A stretch of 32,735 nucleotides of DNA, taken from contig JAIYBC010000043.1 in the NCBI GenBank assembly GCA_027488845.1, positions 1 through 32,735 of the forward strand, given 5' to 3'. A program made the position numbers and the translations under genes. A model generated the notes under the pieces. The model saw only the letters and a list, made by a program, of their open reading frames with translations. It made no database searches and was not told the DNA's origin. Origin of the DNA: Verrucomicrobiales bacterium (GTDB taxonomy: Bacteria > Verrucomicrobiota > Verrucomicrobiia > Limisphaerales > UBA9464). Shown here one piece after another: positions 6,389 to 32,735 of this stretch (positions are counted from its first letter, which is position 1; the number at the start of each line of letters is the position of its first letter).

Positions 6389-6463
6389 GCGCGCTTAGCT
6401 CAGTGGTAGAGCACATCCTTCACACGGATGGGGTCCCAGGTTCGAAACCTGGAGCGCGCACCA
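6389..6463 (+). tRNA. tRNA-Val (CAC), probable phage attachment site
   Basis: A complete cloverleaf can be folded by eye. The acceptor stem GCGCGCT/AGCGCGC and D arm GCTC-AGTGGTA-GAGC are present. The anticodon arm is CATCC-TTCACAC-GGATG with anticodon CAC. The T arm is CCAGG-TTCGAAA-CCTGG, and the 3' CCA is encoded. CAC reads the valine codon GUG. A terminator and an integrase gene follow directly, so the 3' half is the likely integration site. Confidence 0.96.
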
Positions 6464-6478
6464 CTTCAAGACCCGAAG

Positions 6479-6514
6479 AAAACCCCGGATTTCCTCAGGA
6501 ATACCGGGGTTTTT
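6479..6514 (+). terminator. intrinsic terminator between tRNA-Val and integrase
   Basis: The stem AAAACCCCGG (6479-6488) / CCGGGG (6504-6509) is extended by pairing of the leading A-run with the trailing T-run TTTTT (6510-6514). It ends tRNA transcription and separates it from the integrase gene. Confidence 0.85.
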
Positions 6515-6610
6515 CGTTTCTGCCGGTGGAGCTGCTCAAACGGCCCAAGGCGGCCCGTGTTGGATCCGAAAGGCGGAAACAGGTCGAAAAACTGGCAACA
6601 ACTGGCAACA

Positions 6611-7738
6611 GTGCCGCCCGTGAAGGTGACTGTTCACGAGCGGATGGTCCGGGGCGCAAAGACTTGGTGCGTCGATGCACACCTAGCCACGGGCCGGACT
6701 CGACAGTTTTTTGGATCGAAGCGAGCTGCTGAACAGGCCGCCTCGGCACTTCGGGCGGACGTGAACGCCGGCGCCGCGTGGGCGACGCTGTCCGATCGGG
6801 AGCGCGCAGTTCTGGCCGCGTTGGCCAAAGAGGCGGAGGTCGAGGGAACGACGCTCTCCGAGGTCTTTGCCGAGTGGCGTCAGATGAAGCGGGACCAGCC
6901 GAAGGTCGAGTCCATCCCGCTCGGGAAGGCCATCGCGCTCTGCTGCCAGGAGAAGGCGGCCAGCGGGCGCCGTGGGGTGTACGTCGAGAATTTGCGGCAG
7001 CAGCTCGGGCGGTTTGCCAAGGGCAGGGAAGAGACGTCGATTTCTGCCGTCGGTCAGTCCGCGATCCGAGAATGGCTGGCGCCGGTCGAGAACCTCGGCA
7101 GCCGGGCAACGTGGCTCAACCGTCTCTCGGCGCTGTTCTCGTGGGCACGCCGGGCCGGGTACGTCACCGCCAACCCGTGCGAGTCGATCGAGCGTGTCCG
7201 CATCGAGACGAACCCGGTGGAGTGCCTGACCGTCGACCAGTGCCGGGACCTCCTCGAGTGGACCCGCGCGGAGCGCCCCAGGTACCTTGCCCTGCTCGTT
7301 TTGGAGCTGCTCTGCGGTCTCCGGCCGGACGAGGCGGAAAAGATCGTCTGGACCGACGTGGACCTCGGCGGCGGTACGGTCACGATCGACGCTTCGAAGA
7401 CCAAGGTCCGGACTCGGCGCATCGTCCAGTTCACCGACTCGGCAAAGGCGTGGATGGTCGAGGCGAAGCGGTTGAGGTCTGAGTTGCCGGTCACCGACGT
7501 TTCCGGTCGGCGGCATACTCGGGCGATGCGGGAGCGGCTACGGCTGAAGGCGTGGCCGGTGAAGCTACTCCGGAAGACTGCGGCGAGCTACCTGATGGCC
7601 GCGTGGCAGGACGCAGGTCGGGTGGCAGACCAATTGGGGCACTCCCCGGGCGTACTGCTAAAAAACTACCGGGCACTGGTGAAGCGAGAGGAGGCGGAAC
7701 GGTGGCTGGCGATCACCCCCGATAGACCGTCGTCCTGA
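6611..7738 (+). CDS. int: phage-type tyrosine recombinase / integrase
   Basis: The ~375-residue protein has an N-terminal arm-binding type region and a SAM-like core-binding domain (SIPLGKAIALCCQEKAASGR ... VYVENLRQQLGRFAKG). The catalytic domain holds the first arginine in LLCGLRPDEAEKI and the second in KLLRKTAASYLMAAW. The His before the second arginine in the usual HxxR motif is Leu here. LGHSP and the tyrosine nucleophile in LKNYRAL follow. It would catalyse site-specific insertion and excision at tRNA-Val. The frame is open back into the tRNA, which cannot be coding. GTG 6611 is my choice, with GTG 6620 or ATG 6644 possible; none has a good ribosome site. The HxxR change is tolerated in some phage integrases. 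Confidence 0.88.
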   Translation: MPPVKVTVHERMVRGAKTWCVDAHLATGRTRQFFGSKRAAEQAASALRADVNAGAAWATLSDRERAVLAALAKEAEVEGTTLSEVFAEWRQMKRDQPKVESIPLGKAIALCCQEKAASGRRGVYVENLRQQLGRFAKGREETSISAVGQSAIREWLAPVENLGSRATWLNRLSALFSWARRAGYVTANPCESIERVRIETNPVECLTVDQCRDLLEWTRAERPRYLALLVLELLCGLRPDEAEKIVWTDVDLGGGTVTIDASKTKVRTRRIVQFTDSAKAWMVEAKRLRSELPVTDVSGRRHTRAMRERLRLKAWPVKLLRKTAASYLMAAWQDAGRVADQLGHSPGVLLKNYRALVKREEAERWLAITPDRPSS

Positions 7739-8251: not shown

Positions 8252-9622
8252 TCAACTCTTACCACGGCCACGATTGTGTTTTTTGCAAAGAAGACGACCG
8301 TTCGCAACTGTTGTCTTGCCGTTCTCTTTCCAGCGAACGATATGGTCTGCATCGGCTTCCTTCGGGTTTGAGAACTTCTCAGAACATCTGGAGCCTTTAT
8401 CATCGGTCCATTCGCATTGGTGATGTGCCCTCTCCCAGATGGCGAGCTTTTGGTCGAAAGTAAAAAGCCTTTTTCCATCCCTATCCTTCGGCTCCAAATC
8501 AGGCATTTCCTGAAGGATAAATGTCATCAAGAGTTCATGCCTGCTTTGAATTCGATTCCTTGCATAGCCGGCATTACTTAATGCTGACGTGAAATTAATC
8601 CAGGGCTTGTCATTTGGGTGCTGTGCCCTCAGCGTCTCAAACCGCGCGATTACATTGGCGAAGAAGTCTCCTTTCGGGATATCATAGTCATGGCTAAGTT
8701 CTTGCCACGCGCGGAAGACTGTTAGTATAAAATGTGCACTCCTAAGTTGCGGCATCAGGATCCTGTTGCCTGCCGACTCAATTGTTGTAGCCTGGAGAAA
8801 CTGCTTAATCACTCGTCTACAGAATTCTTTCTCGGTTTTGGTTAGCGTGGATGCCTTGTCTCTGTACATTGACTCCAGAGAAGACCAGTGTTTGTCTTCA
8901 CCTGGATATAGTATTTCATGAATCATGATGTCCGCCATGTTTCTATGCGCTTTTCGGCGGTTGGGCATGTTTTTCGAAAGCGCATTAAAGAACTCGTGAC
9001 GAGAAACTTCTTCAACCTCGGAATCTTCTTCTTGTATACTGTTGTCTGTGGTTAATTCGGTTATGAAATCGCACAGGTCTCCGCCAAGAGCTGCCCTTAC
9101 TTCAGTTTTGGTTAATGGCTTTCCGCCTTGAAGCATGGCGAAAATGTCCATTGCAATAGACTCTTCTAGTTCCTGATATTCAACGCATTCTAGTTCATAG
9201 TCCTCGAAGGTTTCGCGATCATCAAGTGACAACAGCGAATAGCCCTTTTCTTCATCGCCAGGAAGCAACACGAATTTCTTCTTCCGATACTCCTTTTGAA
9301 CGGAAGGGAAATCTGGAATTGCAACCCGCCCCCTGAAATATTCAACGATTGCAGTAATGCGCTGGCGACCGTCAATTGGAACGCGCATTCCATTGGACTT
9401 CTGCCAGAGAATAATCATGCCAATCGGGTACTGACGAATGATCGAATATGCCAACAGCCCCATTTCGTCCGTGTTCCACACGGTTTGCCGTTGCCAAGCT
9501 GGAACGTCCGCATCGTCGACAGATACAACCTTACCCAGTTCAGTCTTTCGCGAAGCGTCGATCCGCTTCATTAAGGCCTTAATCGTGTTGAATCCCGGTG
9601 TTTTTGGTTCAAGGATCTTCAT
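8252..9622 (-). CDS. DUF262 protein with C-terminal HNH nuclease motif, probable restriction-type defence protein
   Basis: The ~456-residue protein has the DUF262 signature PIDGRQRITAI (~82-92) in its N-terminal third. DUF262 is a ParB-like fold that in GmrS/GmrD-type enzymes couples nucleotide use to cutting of modified DNA. The last ~55 residues form an HNH-type module: CEWTDDKGSRC, then ADHIVRW, then NGRLLCKKHNRGRG. The middle is helical and unassigned. The family includes stand-alone modification-dependent endonucleases, and I infer an anti-phage role. Base composition is much more AT-rich than the flanking phage genes, which suggests transfer. I chose ATG 9622 over GTG 9628. A reverse attC-like site lies ~185 bases upstream, so it may be a cassette passenger, but no attC is visible behind it. 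Confidence 0.82.
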   Translation of the reverse strand: MKILEPKTPGFNTIKALMKRIDASRKTELGKVVSVDDADVPAWQRQTVWNTDEMGLLAYSIIRQYPIGMIILWQKSNGMRVPIDGRQRITAIVEYFRGRVAIPDFPSVQKEYRKKKFVLLPGDEEKGYSLLSLDDRETFEDYELECVEYQELEESIAMDIFAMLQGGKPLTKTEVRAALGGDLCDFITELTTDNSIQEEDSEVEEVSRHEFFNALSKNMPNRRKAHRNMADIMIHEILYPGEDKHWSSLESMYRDKASTLTKTEKEFCRRVIKQFLQATTIESAGNRILMPQLRSAHFILTVFRAWQELSHDYDIPKGDFFANVIARFETLRAQHPNDKPWINFTSALSNAGYARNRIQSRHELLMTFILQEMPDLEPKDRDGKRLFTFDQKLAIWERAHHQCEWTDDKGSRCSEKFSNPKEADADHIVRWKENGKTTVANGRLLCKKHNRGRGKS

Positions 9623-9806
9623 AGTCACGTTTGGAGATTATATGACGCTCTTTGTTTCTGATGCAATTTGCATTATATAAATAACAGAAATACTCAACGA
9701 CCGCTATCGTTAAAGGTTGATGACAGATTGGGGAATCACTTTGAAGCTCTACTATTTGTTCCCTGGAACCGAGCGGCGCTTCGCATAAGTGCCCTTGCCT
9801 TCTTAC

Positions 9807-9903
9807 GCCTATCGTAAGGAGTTCAGCGACCCGGCGCTTCAAACGTCTGACTTGCAGCGACAGCGCTTACGGCGGGTTAGGCGCTGAAGCGCCTTTTTAG
9901 GCG
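9807..9903 (-). repeat. attC-like site, reverse orientation, degenerate
   Basis: Read on the minus strand, the site starts with CGCCTAA near 9903, then GGCGCTTCAGCG and ACCCGCCG. It ends with GCGCCGGGTCGCTGA and a GATAGGC end (9807-9813), one base off GTTAGGC. The two arms pair apart from a four-base CCTA bulge, where the right-hand array has a single extra A. It starts ~10 bases behind the stop of the gene ending at 9914, the position expected of an integron attC. Confidence 0.6.
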
Positions 9904-10821: not shown

Positions 10822-10912
10822 TACCTAGATGAAAGGTCAGTGATCCGGCGGCTGAAACGCATGGATTGCAACGGTGGTGCCCCCGCCAGGTTCGCTGAAG
10901 CGCCTGGCTAGG
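10822..10912 (-). repeat. attC-like site, reverse orientation
   Basis: Read on the minus strand: CCTAGCCAGGCGCTTCAGCG, then AACCTGGCGG, then a terminal region containing GTTGCAATCC, then GCCGCCGGATCACTGACC, ending in TCTAGGT. The left half and the GTTGCAATCC segment match the right-hand array sites at 29.7-32.3 kb closely. The stop codon of the gene ending at 10908 lies inside its first repeat. The ends are degenerate relative to GTTRRRY, so activity is uncertain. Confidence 0.7.
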
Positions 10913-14746: not shown

Positions 14747-15829
14747 ATGTCTGAAACCAACGCAGTAACCGCTCCCGCCACCCCGAAAGGCCCGCCCATG
14801 GCCGTCGCGCGCGGGTTGCAGATCACCAACATGGACGAGCTCTGGCGCTTCGCCACGGCCGTCGCCAAGTCGGGCCTCGCGCCGAAAGGCATCGAGCATC
14901 CGGAAGCTATCTTCGTTGCCTTGGAGATGGGTCTTGAGGTCGGCCTCCCGCCGATGGCCGCGCTCCAGAACATCGCCGTCATCAATGGCCGGCCGTCCAT
15001 CTGGGGCGATGCCCAGCTTGCCGTGGTCCGCGGCACCGGTGACCTCGAAGAGTTCGCTGAGTGGTACGAGGCCAAGGGCACCAAGCTGCCGCGCAACCCG
15101 GCCACGTTCTTCGACGACACCTCGGCCGTTTGCCGGGTGAAGCGCCGCGGGTTCGAAGCGGTCGAGGTTGGTTTCTCCGTCGCTGAAGCCAAGACGGCGA
15201 ACCTGTGGGGCAAGTCCGGCCCGTGGTCGCAATACCCGGCCCGGATGCTGAAGTTCCGCGCCCGCTCGTTCGCTCTGCGTGACACGTTCGGCGACGCGCT
15301 CAAGGGCCTACGGGCTGCCGAAGAGGTCCAGGACGATCCGCAGGAGCTTAACGTCACCCCGCCGCCGTCGTCTGATGCGCCGGCTTCGGCTGCCCCGGGC
15401 GCTCCGACCTTCCGTCGGCGTCGCGAGAAGGCGGCCGAGACTCCGGCGGAGGCCAGCCCCGCAACCGCCGCGCAGCCTGCTGCTCCCGTGCCTGCCGAGC
15501 CGTCGACCACCACGGCGGACGGGCTCGCGAATGAGGCCATCGCCGCGGCGGCCTCGGCTGCGGCTCCGACATCTGCTCCGGTTGCTCCCGCGATCCCCGA
15601 CGTCACTACCGACCCGCACGGGTTCATCCAGTTCAAGCTCGGGCAGTACGGGGTCAAATTCGACGACTTTCGAGACTGGTTGAAGATCGCCGGGCACTTC
15701 GAGCAGGCCGATTCGATGGCGGACATCAATGACCTTCCGAGGTCAGTCGCGGTCAAGATCACCGCCGACGGCTGCGCGTTCCTCAAGAAGTGCTGCACGA
15801 TCTACGGGAAGACAGGGGGTGCTAGGTGA
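14747..15829 (+). CDS. recT: RecT-family single-strand annealing protein
   Basis: The 360-residue protein matches the phage RecT-type pattern in its first ~200 residues: RFATAVAKSGLAPKGIEHPE, ALEMGLEVGLPPMAALQNIA, VINGRPSIWGDAQLAV, then a late YPARMLKFRARSFALRDTFG block. RecT proteins anneal complementary strands after an exonuclease resects the ends, promoting phage recombination. The C-terminal half is Ala/Pro-rich (~205-285) with a short conserved-looking end (LGQYGVKFDDFRDWLKIAGH). It lies upstream of a RecE-type exonuclease, RusA and SSB, the usual phage recombination set. Its end (GGGGGTGCTAGGTGA) again encodes Gly-Gly-Ala-Arg-stop and serves the next gene. Confidence 0.85.
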   Translation: MSETNAVTAPATPKGPPMAVARGLQITNMDELWRFATAVAKSGLAPKGIEHPEAIFVALEMGLEVGLPPMAALQNIAVINGRPSIWGDAQLAVVRGTGDLEEFAEWYEAKGTKLPRNPATFFDDTSAVCRVKRRGFEAVEVGFSVAEAKTANLWGKSGPWSQYPARMLKFRARSFALRDTFGDALKGLRAAEEVQDDPQELNVTPPPSSDAPASAAPGAPTFRRRREKAAETPAEASPATAAQPAAPVPAEPSTTTADGLANEAIAAAASAAAPTSAPVAPAIPDVTTDPHGFIQFKLGQYGVKFDDFRDWLKIAGHFEQADSMADINDLPRSVAVKITADGCAFLKKCCTIYGKTGGAR

Positions 15830-17019: not shown

Positions 17020-17881
17020 CGCCTTCGAGCCCAACCAGCCGGGCGTCTTCGACATCCCGGCGGAGACCTACCACCGCGCCCCCGGAGTCTCGAACTCCAT
17101 GCTCGGCGAGATGGATCCGCCCGCCCGCCTTCCGGCCTACCTTGCCACGCCTCGCGAGGTCACCCCGTGGATGGTCATGGGGACCCTGATTCACCAACGG
17201 GTCCTGGAGCCGAACAGGCCGCTTCCGAAGCTGGCGATCCGGCCGGCGAAATACGGACCGGACGGGAAGGACTGGAACGGCAACGCTACCGAGTGCAAGG
17301 CGTGGCTACGTGTTCAGTTACAGGCCGGCCGCATCGTCCAGACTCAGGCGGAGGCGGACCGCGTCACCGGTTGCGTCGACGCGATCCTCAAGCACCCAAC
17401 CTGTCAGGACATTTTCGCTGCCGGTCGCTCCGAGGTCTCGATCTTCAACCGGCTCGATGTCGGTGGAGGCAGGGTCCTGACCAAGGCCCGCCTCGATTGG
17501 ATCCCGGACGACTCCGATTCCATCGTCGACGTGAAGAAGGTCGGGAAGGGGAAGGCCGCGGCCGAGGAGTTCATCAAGCTGGCCATCGAGCGGCGCTACC
17601 ACGTCCAGGCGGCCTCCTACCGCCACAACTGGAACGCCCAGATGGGCACCACGGATCCCCGCGAGAAGTTCACCTTCGTCGTCGTGGAGGACGAGGCTCC
17701 GTACCTGGTCAACGTCATCGCCCTCGGTTGGCGGACGATGGAGCTGGGGCTGGATCTCTACTTCGAAGACCTCGACCTCTACCGCAGGTGTCTGGAGGCG
17801 AACCGCTGGGCCGGATACGGCGACGAGCCGAAGGTCGTAGAGGCGCCTGAATGGGTGTTCCGGAAGGGAGGGCGGCTGTGA
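17012..17881 (+). CDS. recE: RecE-type PD-(D/E)XK exonuclease
   Basis: The ~289-residue protein matches the phage RecE/DUF3799 nuclease pattern: IPAETYHRAPGVSNSMLGEM at the start, GTLIHQRVLEP, AEVSIFNR-like strand (GRSEVSIFNRLD), ARLDWIPDD, then VDVKKVGKGKAAAEEF, and RYHVQAASYRHNW. The Asp in LDWI, the Asp-x-Lys in VDVKK, and the Gln/Tyr helix are the expected metal site. It would degrade one strand of duplex DNA ends, handing 3' tails to the RecT protein. GTG 17012 has GGAGG five bases upstream; ATG 17000 is the alternative. It precedes rusA with a one-base overlap (TGATG). Confidence 0.85.
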   Translation: MSDAFEPNQPGVFDIPAETYHRAPGVSNSMLGEMDPPARLPAYLATPREVTPWMVMGTLIHQRVLEPNRPLPKLAIRPAKYGPDGKDWNGNATECKAWLRVQLQAGRIVQTQAEADRVTGCVDAILKHPTCQDIFAAGRSEVSIFNRLDVGGGRVLTKARLDWIPDDSDSIVDVKKVGKGKAAAEEFIKLAIERRYHVQAASYRHNWNAQMGTTDPREKFTFVVVEDEAPYLVNVIALGWRTMELGLDLYFEDLDLYRRCLEANRWAGYGDEPKVVEAPEWVFRKGGRL

Positions 17882-18306
17882 TGTCCCTGTCCTTCTACGT
17901 CCACGGAACCCCTGTCGGCCAACCGCGGCCGCGGGCCTGTATCCGAGGTAGACACGCCGGGATGTACGACCCCGGCACGGCCGACGCATGGAAGGCGCAG
18001 GTAGCCGCCGAGGCGAGGCGCGCATGGGGCGGTCGCCAGTTCACCGGCCCAGTGAAGCTGTCCCTTCAGGTCTGGATGCCACGGCCGAAGTCGCACCTTC
18101 GGTCGACAGGGGAGATCAAGCCAAGCGCCCCGCGCTGGCACATCGCGAAGCCCGACCTCGACAACATCGAGAAGGCCATCAAGGACGCCATCACAACGGC
18201 TGGCGTCTGGAAGGACGACAGCCTCGTCTGCGCGGTCGGTAAAACCAAGATGTACGCGGTCAACGAGCCGGGGGCGTCGATCCGGATCGAGGAGATTGTC
18301 GAATGA
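17881..18306 (+). CDS. rusA: RusA-type Holliday junction resolvase
   Basis: The 141-residue protein has the RusA layout: SFYVHGTPVGQPRPRACIRG at the start, then the acidic active-site motif KPDLDNIEKAIKDAI, and GVWKDDSLV. These supply the Asp cluster and Lys that bind metal and cut four-way junctions. Length is close to the usual ~120-140. A GGGAGG lies ~8 bases upstream of ATG 17881. In this operon it would resolve recombination intermediates or trim branches before packaging. Confidence 0.92.
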   Translation: MSLSFYVHGTPVGQPRPRACIRGRHAGMYDPGTADAWKAQVAAEARRAWGGRQFTGPVKLSLQVWMPRPKSHLRSTGEIKPSAPRWHIAKPDLDNIEKAIKDAITTAGVWKDDSLVCAVGKTKMYAVNEPGASIRIEEIVE

Positions 18307-19230: not shown

Positions 19231-19806
19231 ATGATCCCGAAAACCATCATCCATCTCCTCTCCGGCGGTCTGGACTCGACCGTGCTCCTCTACGACCTCG
19301 TCAACCAAGGCCATCGCATCCACGCCTTGGTCATCGACTACGGTCAGTCCCACATCAAAGAGGCGCTCTTCGCGTCTGACCATTGCGAACGCCTTTGCGT
19401 GAAGGCGACACATCTTCAGATGCCCAGGCTGCGCGGGTCAAAGCTGACCGACGGAGTCGGCACTTACGTCGTCCCAAACCGCAATGCCGTCCTGCTCTCG
19501 ATCGCCTGCAATCTCGCCGTGACCGCGAACTCCGAGGCGGTGACGGTGGGGTCGAATTTTGACGACGCGGCTGGATTCCCCGACTGCCGGCCCGAGTTTG
19601 TCGCCGCCTTCAACAGTGCCCTGGTCGCCGCTGAGGTGCCGGTCGAGGTCTGCGCGCCCTACATCGGGAAAACCAAGCGCGAGATCGTCCAGATAGGACG
19701 CCAGCTCGGCGTGTCGTTCCCACTGACGTGGTCGTGCTACGTCAAAGGAGAGGATCAGTGCGGCACCTGCCCGGCCTGCGTGAAGCGTCTGGAGGCGCTC
19801 CGATGA
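19231..19806 (+). CDS. queC: QueC, 7-cyano-7-deazaguanine (preQ0) synthase
   Basis: The 191-residue protein has the PP-loop LLSGGLDSTVLL (Ser11-Ser16), DYGQSHIKEA, VVPNRNAVLLSIACNLA, VGSNFDDAAGFPDCR and a C-terminal zinc site of four cysteines (SCY at 169, then C177, C180, C183 in QCGTCPACVKR). All key QueC elements are present. QueC uses ATP and ammonia to turn 7-carboxy-7-deazaguanine into preQ0. It is a little shorter than typical cellular QueC (~220). I chose ATG 19231; the frame is open further upstream through the previous gene. The next gene starts inside its stop (ATGATG/TGATG) and is a TGT-like enzyme, so the preQ0 is probably meant for phage DNA and not tRNA. QueD, QueE and FolE are not in the window. 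Confidence 0.92.
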   Translation: MIPKTIIHLLSGGLDSTVLLYDLVNQGHRIHALVIDYGQSHIKEALFASDHCERLCVKATHLQMPRLRGSKLTDGVGTYVVPNRNAVLLSIACNLAVTANSEAVTVGSNFDDAAGFPDCRPEFVAAFNSALVAAEVPVEVCAPYIGKTKREIVQIGRQLGVSFPLTWSCYVKGEDQCGTCPACVKRLEALR

Positions 19807-20501
19807 TCGTCATGCCGGCCAACTCGACCGGATGGTTCTGGCATTGCCTTGCTCGCGAAACAGGGCGAATCGGGCACCTCTACTCCCCCGGGGCTCAGCG
19901 CGGTCCGTGGCCTTGGTTCCCATTCGCCCTCGACAATGGTGCCTTCGCCTGTTGGGAGCCGACGTCGAACACTTTCAACCAAGCCCGATGGAAGAAGACC
20001 GAGCCTCTTTGGCGGCATCTCCTGTTTTGGGCTCAGGCTGCACCTGTCCGTCCCCGCTGGGCCATCGTCCCGGACATCCCGGGGAACTCCGATGCCACGC
20101 TCGAACGCTGGGTCACCTTCGCGCCTATCGTTGAAGCCGCCGGCATCCCGCTCGCCATTGCCTGCCAAGATGGAATGACGCCGTCCGATGTTCGGTCACT
20201 GAGTCCAGCGCCGGCCGTCGTCGCCATTGGCGGATCAACGGAGTGGAAGTGGAAGACGGTCGAGCAGTGGTGCGAGGAGTTCCCGCGGGTCCACCTCCTC
20301 CGCTGCAATATGCCAGACAGGCTTGAGCTTCTTGAAAGGCTCGGGTGCGAGAGCACCGACGGGACGGGGTGGAACCGCGGCGACACCAACCAAACAGCCG
20401 GCCTCGAATCCTGGGCGAGAAGCCGACCGAAGCCGCGGATCGATTCCCTATGGCCGTTCGTCTGCAAGGCCAAGGACTCCCATCAACTCACTTTCGCATG
20501 A
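19803..20501 (+). CDS. TGT-like deazaguanine base-exchange enzyme, DpdA2 type
   Basis: The ~232-residue protein looks like the short phage DpdA family. It has LDNGAFACW (Asp44; equivalent to the TDSGGFQ Asp of tRNA-guanine transglycosylase), VPDIPGNSDATLERW (~89-103), IACQDGM (~119-125), AIGGSTEWKWK (~141-151) and HLLRCNM ... LGCESTDGTGWNRGD, where Asp186 matches the TGT nucleophile. DpdA proteins swap guanine in DNA for preQ0 or derivatives. It starts at the ATG overlapping the end of queC, so the two are translationally coupled. Compared with DpdA of the bacterial dpd island it is much shorter, as in phage enzymes. The assignment rests on recalled motif patterns. Confidence 0.8.
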   Translation: MIVMPANSTGWFWHCLARETGRIGHLYSPGAQRGPWPWFPFALDNGAFACWEPTSNTFNQARWKKTEPLWRHLLFWAQAAPVRPRWAIVPDIPGNSDATLERWVTFAPIVEAAGIPLAIACQDGMTPSDVRSLSPAPAVVAIGGSTEWKWKTVEQWCEEFPRVHLLRCNMPDRLELLERLGCESTDGTGWNRGDTNQTAGLESWARSRPKPRIDSLWPFVCKAKDSHQLTFA

Positions 20502-20626
20502 CTTACCCGACGTTCACTCACTCCGGTTGGCGCGTCTGGACCGTGACGGACGGCCTCCAAGTCTTCGCCCGCCACGCGCCGCTGTCCGTCATGCTCCGGG
20601 GAGTCTTCGGGTGTATCCGCCAATGA
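20498..20626 (+). CDS. very small phage protein
   Basis: The 42-residue frame begins MTYPTFTHSGWRVWTVTDGL and is bracketed by ATGA overlaps at both ends (with the DpdA-like gene and the replication gene). That coupling is the main support. The aromatic strand-like pattern (WRVWTVTDGLQVFARHA) could form a small beta sheet. No known function. Confidence 0.5.
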   Translation: MTYPTFTHSGWRVWTVTDGLQVFARHAPLSVMLRGVFGCIRQ

Positions 20627-21585
20627 GAATCCGAACCATCAAGCCCGAGTTCTGGACCGACAAGAAGGTGGCCAGTTGGGACCACTTCACGCGCCTTCTC
20701 TACATCGGACTCTGGTCGGCCGCGGACGATCATGGCCGAGGATCCGCAGAGGCCGCACGGTTGGCTGCCGAGCTGTTTCCTTACGACCTCTCGCGAGACC
20801 CTATCGAGATCCTCGCGAGAGTCGCGGCGAGTCTCGACACCATCGCCAAGAGCGGCCGAATCGCACTTTACGCCGTCGACAGCGAAAGATTCTACGAAGT
20901 CGCCCACTGGTCACGCCATCAGCGGGTCGACAACGCTGGAAAGCCCAAAGTACCAGCACCTTCGGAGGGTTCCCCTGTGGATCCTCGCGAGATTCGCCGC
21001 GACTCGCCGCGATCCGCCGCTGGAACAGGGATCAGGGAACAGGGAGATGGAACAGGGATCAGGGAACAGGTGGGCGCACAAAGCGCCACCGAGCCAGCCG
21101 ACGAGAAGTCCGAATCCCCGAAGAAGTACACCCAAGCCCGGATCGTCCTCCACGCGCTGAACGAAGCCGCCGGCCGGCACTACCGCGAGACCGAGACGAA
21201 CCTGGATTTCATCCGCTGCCGGTTGGAAGAGCCCGACGTCACCGTCGACGGCTGCATCGCGATGATCCGCCGGCAGGTCGCCCGCTGGGGCAGCGACCCG
21301 AAGATGGCCGAGTTCCTCCGCCCCGAGACCCTGTTCAACCGCACGAAGTTCGATTCGTACTATGCCAACCGAGACCTGCCCGCAGAGACCGCTGGAAACG
21401 GAAACGGCCAGCGCATTGGAGGCCCTAACCTCAACGCCCATGTCGCAGGCGTCGCCGACCGAATTCGGGAACGCCGTGAGCAATGGGACCGCGAAGACCC
21501 CGACGCTCCCCCTCCGGGGTTTGAACGAGAACCCAAGCTGGCGCTCCCGGGTCTTGGGTCTAACGGAAACCCACCCCAAGGTTGA
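20623..21585 (+). CDS. phage replication initiation protein with conserved phage C-terminal domain
   Basis: The 320-residue protein begins MRIRTIKPEFWTDKKVASWD, an N-terminal winged-helix type opening common in phage replisome organisers. The C-terminal block (~172-249) matches the conserved phage C-terminal domain TIGR02220/Phg_2220_C: VLHALNEAAGRHYRE, NLDFIRCRLEE, CIAMIRRQVARW, and SDPKMAEFLRPETLFN then TKFDSYYAN. These proteins bind the phage origin and recruit helicase. A linker at ~134-150 holds a two-copy GTGIREQ repeat, encoded by a 27-base tandem repeat at 21022-21070. The 3' end overlaps the helicase-loader frame by up to 224 bases. Confidence 0.85.
   Translation: MRIRTIKPEFWTDKKVASWDHFTRLLYIGLWSAADDHGRGSAEAARLAAELFPYDLSRDPIEILARVAASLDTIAKSGRIALYAVDSERFYEVAHWSRHQRVDNAGKPKVPAPSEGSPVDPREIRRDSPRSAAGTGIREQGDGTGIREQVGAQSATEPADEKSESPKKYTQARIVLHALNEAAGRHYRETETNLDFIRCRLEEPDVTVDGCIAMIRRQVARWGSDPKMAEFLRPETLFNRTKFDSYYANRDLPAETAGNGNGQRIGGPNLNAHVAGVADRIRERREQWDREDPDAPPPGFEREPKLALPGLGSNGNPPQG
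21022..21070. repeat. short tandem repeat in the replication gene linker
   Basis: Two copies of GGAACAGGGATCAGGGAACA at a 27-base period encode the duplicated GTGIREQ in the replication protein. Origin iterons of lambdoid phages often lie inside the O-type gene, so a role as an origin element is possible, but two copies are few. Confidence 0.5.
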
Positions 21586-22731: not shown

Positions 22732-23312
22732 AATCCACGCCCAAGCCTCCCCCTAAGATCGCGATTCATTGCCAGTTCAGCCGGATGGCTGATCCGGAAT
22801 CGCTCGCGCCTCATCCGCAGAACCCGAAGCGGCATCCGCCCGAGCAACTCCGGGTGTTCGAGAAGGTCATCCGCGAGCAGGGGATCCGCCGGTCCATCGT
22901 CGTCAGCAAGCGGAGCGGGTACGTGGTCAGCGGCCACGGGCTCCTGGAGACCCTGAAGCGTCTCGGGCTGAAGTTGGTCCCGGTCGACGATCAAGACTTC
23001 CCAAGCGAGGAAGCCGAGCTGGCCCACATGGTCGCCGACAACAAGCTCCCGGAGTTGGGGGAGACCGCGGAGGCCGAGGTCCGGAAGATCCTGCGGCAAC
23101 TCGAAGGGGCAGGGATCGACAGCGAGATCGCCGGCATCGTGAAAGAGATCGAGACGGCCGCGCTGCGCGAGGTTAAGCCGGCTGTCCCGCCGGCCATGTC
23201 GTGGATCCTCGTCGGAATCCCGACCGTGAAGTTTGGGGAGATCGCCAAGGAGATCGAGGCCATCGCGGCCCGGCCGGACTCCATCGTCGAGACCACCGTC
23301 GCGAACAAATGA
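22728..23312 (+). CDS. ParB/sulfiredoxin-fold phage protein
   Basis: The 194-residue protein has the ParB N-terminal pattern: LAPHPQNPKRHPPEQLRVFE (~26-45), SIVVSKRSGYVVSGHGLLET (~56-75), then LKRLGLKLVPVDDQDF and AELAHMVADNKLPELGETAE. In ParB-like phage proteins the usual GHGR is the active CTP/ATP or nuclease site; here it reads GHGL, so the Arg is missing. Phages often place such a protein before a DNA methyltransferase, as here (next gene starts in an ATGA overlap). The last ~40 residues are a short extra domain. Function in DNA modification or partition is inferred. Confidence 0.8.
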   Translation: MKSTPKPPPKIAIHCQFSRMADPESLAPHPQNPKRHPPEQLRVFEKVIREQGIRRSIVVSKRSGYVVSGHGLLETLKRLGLKLVPVDDQDFPSEEAELAHMVADNKLPELGETAEAEVRKILRQLEGAGIDSEIAGIVKEIETAALREVKPAVPPAMSWILVGIPTVKFGEIAKEIEAIAARPDSIVETTVANK

Positions 23313-23905
23313 GCACGAAGTGCGACAACCATAACCCGGCGGCGAAGCTCATTCTCCGCCGGCACTTCCTTAGCCGGTACCACCGAGACCGAGCGCCGCG
23401 GGTCCTCGACTGCTTCCAAGGATCCGGCCTCATCTGGGGCCAGCTCGGGGCGGAGTTCCCGATCGGGTCCTACTGGGGCGTCGACCTGAAGCCGAAGAAG
23501 GGCCGGTTGAAGATCGATTCCGCGCGGATCCTCGAACAGGAGGGTTGGGACGCGGACGTGGTCGACCTCGACGCCTACGGGTCCCCGTGGACCCACTGGC
23601 GCAACCTGGTTCGGACCTTCCGCGGCGACCGGATCAGCGTGTTCCTCACCTTCGGGATGGTGAAGATGTTTGGCCTCTCCGCGAACTGCGACGCGACCGT
23701 CTTGGACATGGCCGGATGTCGCTTCTCCCGACCGCTCCCGACCTCACTCCGCTCCCGATTCAACGGATGGGCGTTGGACTACGCCCTCGGCGACGCCCGA
23801 AAGCACGGATTGGAGGCCGTCGAGGTCCAGGAGGCCTTCCCCCAAGGCCGGGCGCGGTACATCGGCGTCCATCTGGCGCGAGTTTCCGCCAATGAATCCG
23901 TTTAG
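23309..23905 (+). CDS. methyltransferase-like phage protein (Rossmann fold, Trm1-like motif)
   Basis: The 198-residue protein has a motif-I-like VLDCFQGSGLIWGQL (~32-46), an acidic strand end YWGVDLKPKKGRLKID (~55-70) and VDLDAYGSPWTHW (~85-97). The last motif matches the D-x-D-P/A-Y/F-G-S-P loop of Trm1-type guanine-N2 methyltransferases, where it binds the substrate. The order fits a SAM-dependent methyltransferase. Substrate (tRNA, DNA or a modified base) is unknown. The co-translated ParB-like partner argues for DNA. At 198 residues it lacks the long C-terminal part of Trm1. No NPPY or DPPY motif of ordinary adenine or cytosine-N4 enzymes is present. Confidence 0.65.
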   Translation: MSTKCDNHNPAAKLILRRHFLSRYHRDRAPRVLDCFQGSGLIWGQLGAEFPIGSYWGVDLKPKKGRLKIDSARILEQEGWDADVVDLDAYGSPWTHWRNLVRTFRGDRISVFLTFGMVKMFGLSANCDATVLDMAGCRFSRPLPTSLRSRFNGWALDYALGDARKHGLEAVEVQEAFPQGRARYIGVHLARVSANESV

Positions 23906-25118: not shown

Positions 25119-25901
25119 ATGGGAAACGAAACCATCATCGCGTGGACGAACCACACCTTCAACGTCGCCTGGGGATGCACCCGGATCGATCCGGGCTGTG
25201 CCAACTGCTACGCCGACACCCTTTCGAGCCGCTACGGGTTCGACGTGTGGGGCCCCGGCAAGCCACGGCGGACGTTCGGTCCGAAACACTGGGATGAACC
25301 TCTGAAGTGGGACCGTCTGGCCCGCGAGGGGAAAACCGTCTCGGTGGCGGGCGCCGGCCGGCCGCCGTTGGTGTTCACCTCGTCGATGTGCGACGTCTTC
25401 GAGGACCACCCGACCATCGACCAGGAGCGCGCGAAGCTCTGGCCGCTCATCCGGGCGACGCCGAACCTCCACTGGCAGGTCCTGACGAAGCGCGCGGACC
25501 GGATCCTGAACAACCTGCCGGAGGACTGGGGCCTGGAAGGCTACCCGAACGTCTGGCTCGGGGTGTCCATCTCCGAAGCCCGCGGCGCGTGGCGCGCGGA
25601 ACACCTTCGGAAGGTCCCAGCTGCGGTTCGGTTCATCTCCTACGAGCCTGCCTTGGGGCCTCTCGCGGGCGTCGTGGACCTCGCGGGCATCGACTGGGTG
25701 ATCTTCGGCGGCGAATCCGGCCCCGGGTTCCGGAAGATGGACGTCGAATGGGCGCGGTGCATGCGGGCGGCCTGCGAGCGCGCCGGGACGGCCTTCTTCT
25801 TCAAGCAGTCGGCCGCGCCGCGGACAGAGATGGGGACGACGCTCGACGGAAGCCTTGTTCGAGCGTTCCCAGATTTCTTGGGCACACCAAATATGCGTTG
25901 A
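25119..25901 (+). CDS. DUF5131 (phage Gp37/Gp68) family protein
   Basis: The 260-residue protein has the family opening IIAWTNHTFNVAWGCTRIDP then GCANCYADTLSSRYG. The Cx6CxxC spacing (C20, C27, C30) resembles a radical-SAM iron-sulfur site. Conserved blocks VFTSSMCDVFEDHPTIDQER, WQVLTKRADRILNNLP, NVWLGVSISE, FISYEPALGPL and DWVIFGGESGPGFRKMDVEW follow. Phage copies are common, and the function is not established. A possible link to the deazaguanine pair nearby is only inference; QueE, which makes the QueC substrate, is also a radical-SAM enzyme but looks different. Confidence 0.88.
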   Translation: MGNETIIAWTNHTFNVAWGCTRIDPGCANCYADTLSSRYGFDVWGPGKPRRTFGPKHWDEPLKWDRLAREGKTVSVAGAGRPPLVFTSSMCDVFEDHPTIDQERAKLWPLIRATPNLHWQVLTKRADRILNNLPEDWGLEGYPNVWLGVSISEARGAWRAEHLRKVPAAVRFISYEPALGPLAGVVDLAGIDWVIFGGESGPGFRKMDVEWARCMRAACERAGTAFFFKQSAAPRTEMGTTLDGSLVRAFPDFLGTPNMR

Positions 25902-26605: not shown

Positions 26606-27265
26606 ATGGGGACGAAATCACCTACCGGCTGCCCTGCCGGCCTCCTGAACTCGTCGGACGCGGAAACGCTGCTGAAGGCGGACATCCGGAACCTCACCTT
26701 GAAGGTGAAGGCCGGGCGTCCGCTTTCCGCCGGCGAGCGGAAGCTACTCGCGTCGATGACCGGCGGCGGGAAGCCGTCGACCTCGGCCTACGTCCGCACC
26801 CAGGTCGAGCTCGCCGAAGCCATCGGAGTCGAGCGGAAGACCATCCAGAGATGGCGGAAGGTTGACGGCAATCCGGGCGCCGAGGCTGACGGACGCTGGA
26901 ACGTCGAGGCATGGCGGGCCTTCAAGGCCGCGCGGGAGGGTGAGACGGTTGGCGCCCCTCTGGAGTCCGTTACCGCCCTGAAGGCGCGTCATCTTCTCCT
27001 TCAGAACCAGAAGCTCGAGCACCAAATCGCCGTCATGCGGCGGGAGTACGTGCCCGCGTCGGACGTCGAGCGGTGGGGCTCTGAACTCGGGGCCGAGATC
27101 CGAAAGGTGGTCTGCCAGATCCACCGGCTGGCCCCTTCCATCGTCGGTATGCAGGTCCAGGACGCCGAGGCCCGGCTGCGTGAGATGGAGGACGAGATCC
27201 TCGCCAAGCTCCACATCCTGGAGGAGCAGGCGGCGACCCAACCCGATCCGGAGGGCGGCGAGTGA
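26606..27265 (+). CDS. terS: phage terminase small subunit (Nu1 type)
   Basis: The 219-residue protein has an HTH of terminase small-subunit type (~66-86, QVELAEAIGVERKTIQRWRK) followed by GRWNVEAWRAFKAA. It also has the long helical part typical of Nu1-like proteins: LKARHLLLQNQKLEHQIAVM, RREYVPASDVERWGSELGAE and IHRLAPSIVGM. It would bind the packaging site and regulate the large subunit. ATG 26606 has no clear ribosome site. Its stop overlaps the large-subunit start by four bases. Confidence 0.85.
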   Translation: MGTKSPTGCPAGLLNSSDAETLLKADIRNLTLKVKAGRPLSAGERKLLASMTGGGKPSTSAYVRTQVELAEAIGVERKTIQRWRKVDGNPGAEADGRWNVEAWRAFKAAREGETVGAPLESVTALKARHLLLQNQKLEHQIAVMRREYVPASDVERWGSELGAEIRKVVCQIHRLAPSIVGMQVQDAEARLREMEDEILAKLHILEEQAATQPDPEGGE

Positions 27266-29082
27266 TCAATCCGCTCCTGCGAGGGTTCAAGGCGGCCGTC
27301 CGACCTTCCGACCGCCGGCTTCCGTGGCAGTGGATGGAAGACCACGTCGTCGTCGACAACACCTCGTCGATGTCGGGCAACTGGAGGTCCGACAACTCGC
27401 CGTGGGTGAAAGAGATCGCCGAGGTCGCCGCGGACAACCGCGTGAAGCGGGTCGTCGTGAAGTGTTCCGCGCAGTCGGCCAAGACCCAGACCATCATGGG
27501 CATTCTCTGCTGGGCCATCGCCGAGGACCCGGGGCCGGCGATGTGGGTCATGGCGTCCAAGGACGACGCGAAGGACCTCTTCAAGGATCGCATCGACCCG
27601 ACGTTCCGAGCCTGCAAGCCGGTGTCCGACCTGTTGTTGGATACCGAAGGGCTGACGTACCGGTTCGCTTCCATGCCGCTGTACTTCGTCGGCGCTGGCT
27701 CACCCTCGAAGCTTCAATCCAAGCCGATCCGATGGCTCTTTCTCGACGAGGTTCGGAACTACCCCAAGGGCGCTTTGGACACGGTTTTGAAGCGGACGCG
27801 GTCGTTCTGGAACTCCCGGCAATTCATCATCAGCACCCCCGACATGGAAGGCGACACGGTGGACCGGTCGTTCAAGGAAGGCGACCAGAGGATGTTTCAC
27901 TTCTCGTGCCCGGCCTGCGGCCAGCTCCAACCGCTGAAGATGGAGCAGCTCCGCTGGGACACCAACGATGCGACCAAGCCGGCGGGCGAGTGGAACTTCG
28001 ACGCGCTCGCAGAGACCATCCGGTACCAGTGTGTCGCCTGTGTTCATGTGATCCGGGACACCCCGGTCGATCGACGGACCATCGCCCGGACGGGTCGGTT
28101 CATCCGGATGAACCCCAACGCGCCGCGGTCCACCGTCTCGTTCACTTGGAGCGCACTCCTCCCGCATTGGGTAACCTGGCGGAGCTTGGTCGAGGAGTTC
28201 CTTCTCGCGCAGGCCGCGGCCCGGACTGGGGACCTCTCGCCGCTCAAGGCCTTCGTGAATGAGAGCTTGGGCGAGTCGTGGCGGGACCAACTCGGGGAGA
28301 TCGACGACTTCGACAACCTCGCGGGGTGCATGGAGGACTATGACTTCGGCGACCCGTGGCCGGATGAACGGGCGCGGTTCATGGCCGCCGACAAGCAGGA
28401 GTCTGGCGGCGAGCACTACTGGTGGGTCGTTCGTGCCTTTGGACCATTCGGGAAGTCTCGGCTCCTCGGCTATGGCCGATGCAACACGTTCGCCGAGTTG
28501 GAGGAGATCCGGAAGACCTACAACGTGCCGAACACCAACGCGATTCTGGACTCGGGGTTCAAGGCGCGGGAGGTCTATCGGTTCTGTGCGTCGACGGGGT
28601 GGAAGGCGTTCAAGGGCGACGATGCGCCGTTCTTCCTGCTCCACGAGCCGGTCCCAGGGAAGCCCGGCCAGATGCGGACCGTCCGTCGAATCTGGCGCTA
28701 CACCTACGTCGATCCGCATTTCGGCACAGCGCAGGCGGGCAAGTTCCGGCCGATCAAGCTGTTCCAGTTCGCCAACGATCCGACCAAGGACATGCTGGCG
28801 GAGTACATTGGGCGGCTCGTTGGCGAGTTCTCGATTCCGGGGCACAAGCGGATCGGGCGGGACTACCTGAAGCAACTCACGGCCGAACGGCGTGAGGAGA
28901 CCAAGGACGCGCGCGGCCGTCTCCGGTTCGTGTGGAAGCGGGTTCGGAAGGATAACCACCTGTGGGACTGCGAGTTGATGATTCTGGTCGCGGCCGTCGT
29001 GACCAAGGTCGTCGCCACTCAAGGGCCATCGAGTCTAAGCCAAAGCCATCCAACTAAAGGCGCCGAAGAGGGCAACAAATGA
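27262..29082 (+). CDS. terL: phage terminase large subunit (GpA family)
   Basis: The 606-residue protein is full length for lambda-GpA-type terminases. It has a Walker-A-like VVVKCSAQSAKTQTIMG (~65-80), a Walker B IRWLFLDEVRN (~156-166), a motif III RQFIISTPDMEG, and zinc-type cysteines CPACGQ and QCVAC. The C-terminal nuclease half follows (RFMAADKQES, NTNAILDSGFKAREVYRFC, DNHLWDCELM). It powers genome packaging and cuts concatemers. The ATG overlaps the small-subunit stop. The next frame starts in an ATGA overlap at 29079 but is broken, so this is the last intact phage gene in the window. Confidence 0.95.
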   Translation: MINPLLRGFKAAVRPSDRRLPWQWMEDHVVVDNTSSMSGNWRSDNSPWVKEIAEVAADNRVKRVVVKCSAQSAKTQTIMGILCWAIAEDPGPAMWVMASKDDAKDLFKDRIDPTFRACKPVSDLLLDTEGLTYRFASMPLYFVGAGSPSKLQSKPIRWLFLDEVRNYPKGALDTVLKRTRSFWNSRQFIISTPDMEGDTVDRSFKEGDQRMFHFSCPACGQLQPLKMEQLRWDTNDATKPAGEWNFDALAETIRYQCVACVHVIRDTPVDRRTIARTGRFIRMNPNAPRSTVSFTWSALLPHWVTWRSLVEEFLLAQAAARTGDLSPLKAFVNESLGESWRDQLGEIDDFDNLAGCMEDYDFGDPWPDERARFMAADKQESGGEHYWWVVRAFGPFGKSRLLGYGRCNTFAELEEIRKTYNVPNTNAILDSGFKAREVYRFCASTGWKAFKGDDAPFFLLHEPVPGKPGQMRTVRRIWRYTYVDPHFGTAQAGKFRPIKLFQFANDPTKDMLAEYIGRLVGEFSIPGHKRIGRDYLKQLTAERREETKDARGRLRFVWKRVRKDNHLWDCELMILVAAVVTKVVATQGPSSLSQSHPTKGAEEGNK

Positions 29083-32595: not shown

Positions 32596-32735
32596 TCCTG
32601 TTATTGTCGAACAAGGGCGCTGCAGCGCCTATGAGGGTTGTCAACGGGAAGTGATGTGTCCGCCAGGTTGTGTTTGGATATGGTTTTGGACGCGCGGAGC
32701 GCAACGGAGTGGAGCGGAGTCGCGCGCGTGAGCGG

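Follow-up and report, generated by a model that had tools for sequence, protein, structure and literature searches.

A queC gene coupled to a small DpdA-like transglycosylase gene in a phage-like element of a Verrucomicrobiales bacterium: a probable two-gene cassette for 7-deazaguanine DNA modification

One contig of a Verrucomicrobiales genome carries a gene for QueC, which converts 7-carboxy-7-deazaguanine (CDG) to preQ0, and directly after it the gene of a small protein, here called P0001. What do these two genes do together, and where would the substrate of QueC come from? The window considered here is one whole contig of 32,735 bases; the host genome comprises 5.39 Mb in 69 contigs and is 95.4% complete. 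A sequence-only reading of the window had proposed that QueC and a DpdA2-like enzyme together place preQ0 or a derivative in the DNA of the element. The following features of the window are used below.

6389..6463, forward strand: tRNA-Val, likely integration site (ARAGORN; the integrase gene adjoins)
6428..7738, forward strand: tyrosine integrase (PF00589, 9.7e-9; ORF from the first start codon)
14747..15829, forward strand: RecT-like annealing protein (phrog_561, 2.3e-41)
17851..18306, forward strand: RusA resolvase, a few genes upstream of the pair (PF05866, 1.4e-27)
19231..19806, forward strand: QueC, 191 aa (PF06508 and canonical motifs)
19803..19806, forward strand: ATGA, overlap of the QueC stop with the start of the next gene (sequence)
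19803..20501, forward strand: small DpdA-like transglycosylase P0001, 232 aa (AlphaFold2 fold, hhalign, phrog_15826)
27262..29082, forward strand: terminase large subunit, gpA type (PF05876, 2.7e-46; PF20454, 5.1e-27)

The gene pair and the element around it

The 19231-19806 product matched PF06508 as a full-length QueC (E 1.2e-47) and reached 149.2 bits against NCBIfam TIGR00364, slightly below the cut-off of 150.3. According to the available part of PMC13329287, canonical QueC (PF06508 cluster 1) is marked by SGGxDS, YxQxHxxE, VPxRN, YPDC and a zinc Cys motif with a Tyr after the first Cys. All of these motifs were found in the window protein, as SGGLDS, YGQSHIKE, VPNRN, FPDC and CYVKGEDQCGTCPAC. 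In FPDC a Phe replaces the Tyr of YPDC; the same part of that source reports that the Y131F variant of E. coli QueC retained partial activity. The Cys spacing is C(x)7 versus C(x)8 as written there, and C(x)7 also occurs in the QueC of phage Sonali and in two chromosomal QueCs of the host order. The ATG of P0001 overlaps the TGA of QueC, an arrangement that we read as translational coupling of the two genes. Using phmmer with eight QueD, QueE and FolE queries (E 1e-5) we obtained no match among the window ORFs. The identity of QueC, its coupling to the next gene and the absence of FolE, QueD and QueE from the window, all proposed before, were borne out by these results.

From the tRNA-Val gene onward the contig reads as a phage-like element that is possibly incomplete. 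In addition to the genes listed above it encodes a DUF3799 nuclease and ParB-like, DUF932 and DUF5131 proteins. The tRNA-Val gene is the likely integration site, and the true start of the integrase probably lies further in than position 6428. No exact match of at least 12 bases to the first 100 bases from the tRNA-Val start was detected beyond position 6600. The subset of contig ORFs that was scanned did not include a capsid gene. The contig ends at 32735, soon after the terminase gene, in repeat-rich DNA.

Several further observations were made in the window. Between 29653 and 32346 there are five 90-base repeats with GCTAAC/GTTAG ends, spaced 0.5-0.7 kb apart with small ORFs between them. 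Two weaker copies are located on the other strand (9809-9900 and 10833-10911) and more on contigs C39, C41 and C56; single-strand folds of the copies gave z values from -0.2 to -2.6. The arrangement looks like a candidate integron attC cassette array. On the reverse strand, 8252-9628 encodes a protein with GmrSD_N and HNH parts (PF03235 4.3e-16; PADLOC NsnA 1e-19) within an island of 46-47% GC (8-11 kb), compared with 63% before the island and 55-65% over the following 3 kb. This protein is likely defence cargo and possibly acts against the modified DNA of rivals. The DUF5131 protein (25119-25901) matched the PADLOC candidate defence models PDC-M41B (7.3e-53) and PDC-M30B (1.3e-49). Downstream of the pair, ORF 20227-21585 contains two 23-base copies, 27 bases apart from start to start (21021-21070).

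Fold and family placement of the small protein

Searches with the single P0001 sequence against Pfam, NCBIfam and the PDB gave no match. In PHROGs it matched phrog_15826 (1.8e-24), whose function label is unknown, and tblastn found 22 phage records, in several of which the protein bears the SEA-PHAGES name 'DpdA-like tRNA-guanine transglycosylase'; phrog_15826 and the proteins so named are the same family as P0001, the name being an annotation only. A scan with a 9-row profile detected at least 540 relatives in IMG/VR viral contigs, 80 of which were analysed. The family alignment comprises 57 sequences, the window protein and 56 relatives, and a wider set has 36 rows; members measure about 195-236 aa. 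Two other assignments were discarded. A precorrin methyltransferase, the lone PDB match of the P0001 profile (E 0.25), was judged a chance hit, and DUF6610 matched just 7 of the 57 family sequences (best 2.1e-4), with no paper naming DUF6610 found in the open-access literature.

The AlphaFold2 model built from the 57-sequence alignment has a pLDDT of 92.4 and a pTM of 0.88. It matched 126 PDB chains at E 0.001 or better, and among the best 50 of these 126 there are 49 TGTs, rank 50 being the preQ0 insertase DpdA (7ui4). Aligned with TGT 2z1x (VIA-align) it gave a Z of 13.5 over 200 residues at 3.7 A. Matches in a viral structure library include 'queuine tRNA-ribosyltransferases' of Bella96, Mufasa8 and Sonali. 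A structure prediction lacking a TGT fold had been named in the sequence-only reading as grounds for giving it up; the prediction was run and confirms, at the level of a confident model, a TGT-superfamily fold for P0001.

The TGT-type residues that had been pointed out, Asp44 in LDNGAF, GGST and Asp186 in STDGT, are present, and both Asp and both Gly are found in 57/57 sequences. Identical throughout the alignment are Asp44, Asn45, Asp91, Gln122, Gly143, Gly144, Lys149, His164, Arg167, Asn169 and Asp186. In the wider set Asp91, Gln122, Gly143, Gly144, Lys149, His164, Asn169 and Asp186 are invariant, and Asp44 occurs in 35 of the 36 rows, the remaining row being cut short. We take the counterparts to be TGT Asp102, Asp156, Gln203, Gly229-230 and Asp280; the correspondence is based on motif order and the hhalign register, for Asp91 and Asp156 on motif order alone. 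The family has no zinc site: a conserved Cys cluster is absent, and the sole column with at least half Cys has it in 21 of 36 rows.

With hhalign the P0001 family showed a detectable sequence relationship to phage DpdA (9g type), with 88.8% and E 2.5e-6 for the 57-row profile and 93.0% and E 3.5e-7 over 145 columns for the 36-row profile. The DpdA set consisted of Sonali gp87, Erebus, slur01, Iggy, Nadezda and RHEph26, 9g itself not being among them. The values were 0.4% and 0.8% against DpdA2 of Vibrio phage nt-1 and its relatives, and 0.1% and 0.3% against tRNA TGT. As controls, DpdA gave 0.4% against DpdA2 and 2.1% against TGT, so a low value does not mean that two families are unrelated. 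PF01702, the TGT family, matched none of the 57 family members up to E 1, and neither it nor the zinc-binding Cys cluster of tRNA TGT was found in the family. The label 'DpdA2-like' does not fit, with 0.4-0.8% to nt-1 DpdA2 compared with 89-93% to DpdA; we dropped it, in a comparison with little power given the 0.4% between DpdA and DpdA2 themselves. As judged from the profiles, P0001 represents a distinct small subfamily near DpdA and not DpdA2.

Phage DpdA (slur01, Iggy, Sonali gp87; 9g type) resembles P0001 in belonging to the TGT superfamily and in lying beside preQ0 genes, and its motifs DSGAF, LDxIGD, IGG and DSS align with LDNGAF, VPDIPGN, IGGST and TDGT of P0001. The two differ in length, the six DpdA proteins aligned having 296-332 aa, and Gln122 of the P0001 family stands at the position of the histidine in PCFH/PAWH of DpdA. 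DpdA2 of nt-1 shares the TGT-type motif order (DSGG, FDEIP, QGN, IGG-like, HxLGVG, YDS), and its gene adjoins QueC and GTP cyclohydrolase; it is a protein of 464 aa, whereas its profile similarity to P0001 is undetectable. Bacterial tRNA TGT has the same fold as P0001 but differs by its Cys cluster and the PF01702 match.

Arthrobacter phage Sonali contains a P0001-type gene (gp81) together with a DpdA-type protein, QueC, QueD, QueE and FolE, and Vibrio phage R29Z likewise has a small DpdA-like gene as well as DpdA with pathway genes (two exchangers in one phage, loci L003 and L009). Since both phages carry both genes, the small DpdA-like gene is not simply their DpdA; the two genes are different, possibly with different jobs. 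When viral contigs were scanned with Sonali DpdA only this protein itself matched, and a scan with the host TGT found one relative.

Partners beside relatives of P0001 and gene content of the host

We assembled 139 loci with a small DpdA-like gene (80 viral contigs, 50 genome contigs, 8 phage loci and the window) and counted as a partner any phmmer match at E 1e-5 to QueC, QueD, QueE, FolE, a YhhQ-type importer or QueF. A partner was present at 25 of the 139 loci, near-copies included: L080-L084 and L086 belong to a single lineage, and L067-L068 form a second one. The QueE matches at L070, L093 and L102 are weak (E 7e-7 to 9e-6). At 23 of the 25 loci the partner abuts the small DpdA-like gene, ranging from a 127-base overlap to a 19-base gap if ORFs are taken from the first start codon. 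At 114/139 loci, many of them short, no pathway gene was seen in the stretch, and QueC was found in just 2 of 38 whole records searched (the records of 38 of the 80 viral loci). QueC pairs with every motif are those of the window, the L080 group and L103, the last with IPNRN; the QueC-family neighbour at L070 lacks YxQxHxxE and that at L064 reads SGGRES, and both were counted as QueC-family. QueC-like sequence occurs in only 301 of 50,697 phage records, so that QueC is unlikely to stand next to a small DpdA-like gene in several genomes by chance. Because the same kind of pairing is found in other genomes, the pairing in the window appears to be more than chance.

A Pfam scan of 135 of the 137 non-redundant neighbour ORFs (two longer than 700 aa dropped, window excluded) gave, among the 25 of 36 families listed, QueC in 3, PTPS (QueD family) in 5, radical SAM in 2, Vut_1 in 1, nucleoside deoxyribosyltransferase in 6, DNA methylases in 2 and Mom in 1. 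PAPS-reductase-like PP-loop proteins were seen in 6 of the 135 ORFs and as ReqiPine5 gp02 (L007:5508-6425); they may represent a further partner that handles bases or sulfur. For the DUF5131 protein and the methyltransferase-like 23312-23905 protein, one of which had been considered as a derivative-forming partner, phmmer found no relative in the stretches of the 130 remaining viral and genome loci (80 and 50, respectively), and for the latter a scan of viral contigs found none either. We no longer regard them as partners.

Vut_1 (PF02592), which we take to be the YhhQ family, is encoded directly upstream of the small gene in Mycobacterium phage Majeke and Rhodococcus phage ReqiPine5, and next but one upstream in Arthrobacter phage Aoka with a QueF-like protein between. 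These came from ten phage neighbours chosen on account of 'membrane protein' labels, of which three matched Vut_1, one a QueF-like and one a PAPS reductase-like protein, one gave a weak match and four none. YhhQ is a preQ0 transporter according to the available part of PMC5372724. An importer fits the case of the Mycobacterium phage because M. smegmatis is without a preQ0 pathway, as stated in the part of Hutinet et al. at hand.

At 20 of 131 loci a nucleoside 2-deoxyribosyltransferase-like (NDT) gene lies directly upstream, in the place that QueC occupies in the window. These loci are among L017-L053 and all belong to a close clade with 58-64% identity to P0001; RusA is present at 12 of the 20. 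The match to PF05014 is 2e-11 in L035 and 2.7e-5, under the cut-off, in L026. In the GTxMEI stretch G, T, M, E and I are invariant in 20/20 proteins, the Glu being presumably catalytic. QueC-family cluster 4 has been found beside PF05014 proteins (PMC13329287, available part). The NDT-like enzyme may release a base from nucleosides, and the clade raises a new question, that of the source of the base. A search of the open-access literature for papers treating deoxyribosyltransferases, tRNA-guanine transglycosylase and phage together found none. A quickly built tree comprised 73 rows and had long branches; L106, L142 and L144 were excluded from it as truncated or odd. On this tree the QueC label, carried by five rows, required 5 changes and the NDT label 3 if unlabelled rows were taken as lacking the gene; with unlabelled rows left out, each required 1 change. 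Several independent joinings of QueC to the small DpdA-like gene are possible, and not more than that because loci are often cut short. The 114 loci, the two records with QueC and the NDT clade together speak against a universal role of preQ0 in the family.

Outside the element the host genome encodes QueD (contig C11), QueE (C35), TGT (C23) and QueA (C54). Host QueE, in which CxxxCxxC and GGEP are present, scored 53.8 bits with the B. subtilis-type model and falls short of its cut-off, as do 9 of 10 matching control genomes. In this 95.4% complete genome QueC was found in the element only, with no chromosomal copy, and QueF was not found. QueC was likewise absent from 18 other genomes of the genus, 8 of which reach 90% completeness or more and do not exceed 5% contamination. 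Within the host order QueA was detected in 30/30 genomes and QueC in just 5/30 (own included, where it is the element's copy), two of these matches being weak; QueE was present in 19 of 20 genomes (own included). The suggestion that the host supplies the precursor is supported by host QueD and QueE: the host seems able to make CDG, and the element would contribute the single step to preQ0 that has no counterpart among the host genes detected.

In the host order we also noticed a row of luxE, luxC and queD genes, located in the host on G000:C11 (L164:5322-8246), and a pair of queE and a class III aminotransferase gene on G000:C35 (L165:7167-9352), both with relatives among L166-L177 and L184-L213. 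The products of the row matched LuxE (7.1e-13), LuxC (3.5e-58) and PTPS (1e-36). Of 30 genomes, the host's among them, 29 encode a LuxC-like protein. QueD lies beside it at 27/30 loci, the other three being short, cut stretches; for LuxE the count is also 27/30, with one of the other three cut and two not, and the LuxE of L203 is a fragment 1 kb off. The aminotransferase follows QueE in 13 of 14 regions. Activation of CDG by LuxE, reduction by LuxC and amination may form a preQ1 route without QueC and QueF; among the papers listed in literature searches, none on such a route or on LuxC with queuosine was recognised by title.

A probable route to modified DNA and the alternatives

We consider QueC and P0001 to be a two-gene 7-deazaguanine DNA-modification cassette of the phage-like element by which preQ0 is exchanged into DNA, and assign this explanation a probability of about 0.72. 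Host QueD and QueE would provide CDG, the element's QueC would convert it to preQ0, and P0001 would then replace guanine by preQ0 in the DNA of the element through the TGT mechanism, with Asp186 as the nucleophile, Asp44 as the second acid/base and Asp91, Gln122 and Gly144 holding the base. From the two genes and their coupling, the predicted fold, the conserved residues, the gene content of the host and the partners beside relatives we infer the activity and the roles of the residues, and likewise that preQ0 is the base, that DNA is the target and that the modification protects from restriction. Such protection would be the benefit by analogy with other phages. It may be modest here, because in the available part of Hutinet et al. 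2019 (PMC6884629) dG+ but not preQ0 conferred resistance to EcoRI.

The alternative that survives best, an unlikely one, is that both genes are intact in sequence while the element has decayed and they have no present function. Beyond the terminase gene the DNA is repeat-rich and cassette-like, a capsid gene was not seen, and the tRNA stretch does not recur further right in the contig. However, both frames are open with their motifs kept, and the contig simply ends at 32735. Next, and already improbable, P0001 could exchange another base or act in repair or sanitation, with QueC as just one among several loosely associated partners from base metabolism and the NDT clade reflecting the true, wider role. 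The NDT-like gene in the place of QueC, with GT-x-MEI kept in all 20 cases, agrees with this, whereas the QueC, QueD, QueE, QueF-like and YhhQ-type partners all indicate 7-deazaguanines and the base-recognition positions are, by motif order, those of TGT. We give slightly less credence to insertion of preQ0 into phage or host tRNA rather than DNA. The top structural matches are tRNA TGTs and the fold does not discriminate between DNA and RNA as target, but DNA is favoured because the profile link is to DpdA instead of TGT, the zinc part is absent and the context is viral; the host, moreover, already has TGT and QueA. It is very improbable that QueC is an auxiliary metabolic gene for host queuosine synthesis with P0001 incidental: the host has TGT and QueA with no QueC or QueF found, but in the established pathway preQ0 does not feed TGT without QueF, QueC overlaps this gene in other genomes too, and the host order may have another preQ1 route.

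Beyond the two-gene cassette itself, a wider picture can be drawn, which we offer tentatively and hold to be rather less probable than its opposite. In it the family would be a third DNA base-exchange enzyme next to DpdA and DpdA2, found in hundreds of viruses and reduced to a minimal TGT barrel that lacks a zinc site. Each lineage would add only the supply step that its host lacks (QueC, QueD, QueE or an importer), or else a deoxyribosyltransferase to release the base from nucleosides. Here the phage would draw on CDG that the host order makes for a preQ1 route of its own, independent of QueC and QueF, and would turn it into preQ0, which the host never makes.

Further deazaguanines have reportedly been described by Cui et al. 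in 2023. In the open-access literature searched, including the available parts of PMC6884629 and PMC8306585, the small DpdA-like subfamily is not described as such. If the DNA-modification reading is true, it adds a small and widespread family to the enzymes that exchange guanine in DNA, and the small size of its members should ease structural and enzymatic work. A rule is then suggested, with one host tested, that a lone pathway gene beside a P0001-type enzyme may show the step that the host lacks. 'Singleton' phage QueC genes were set aside as hard to interpret in the available part of Hutinet et al. 2019 (PMC6884629); some of them would become interpretable when a small DpdA-like gene adjoins.
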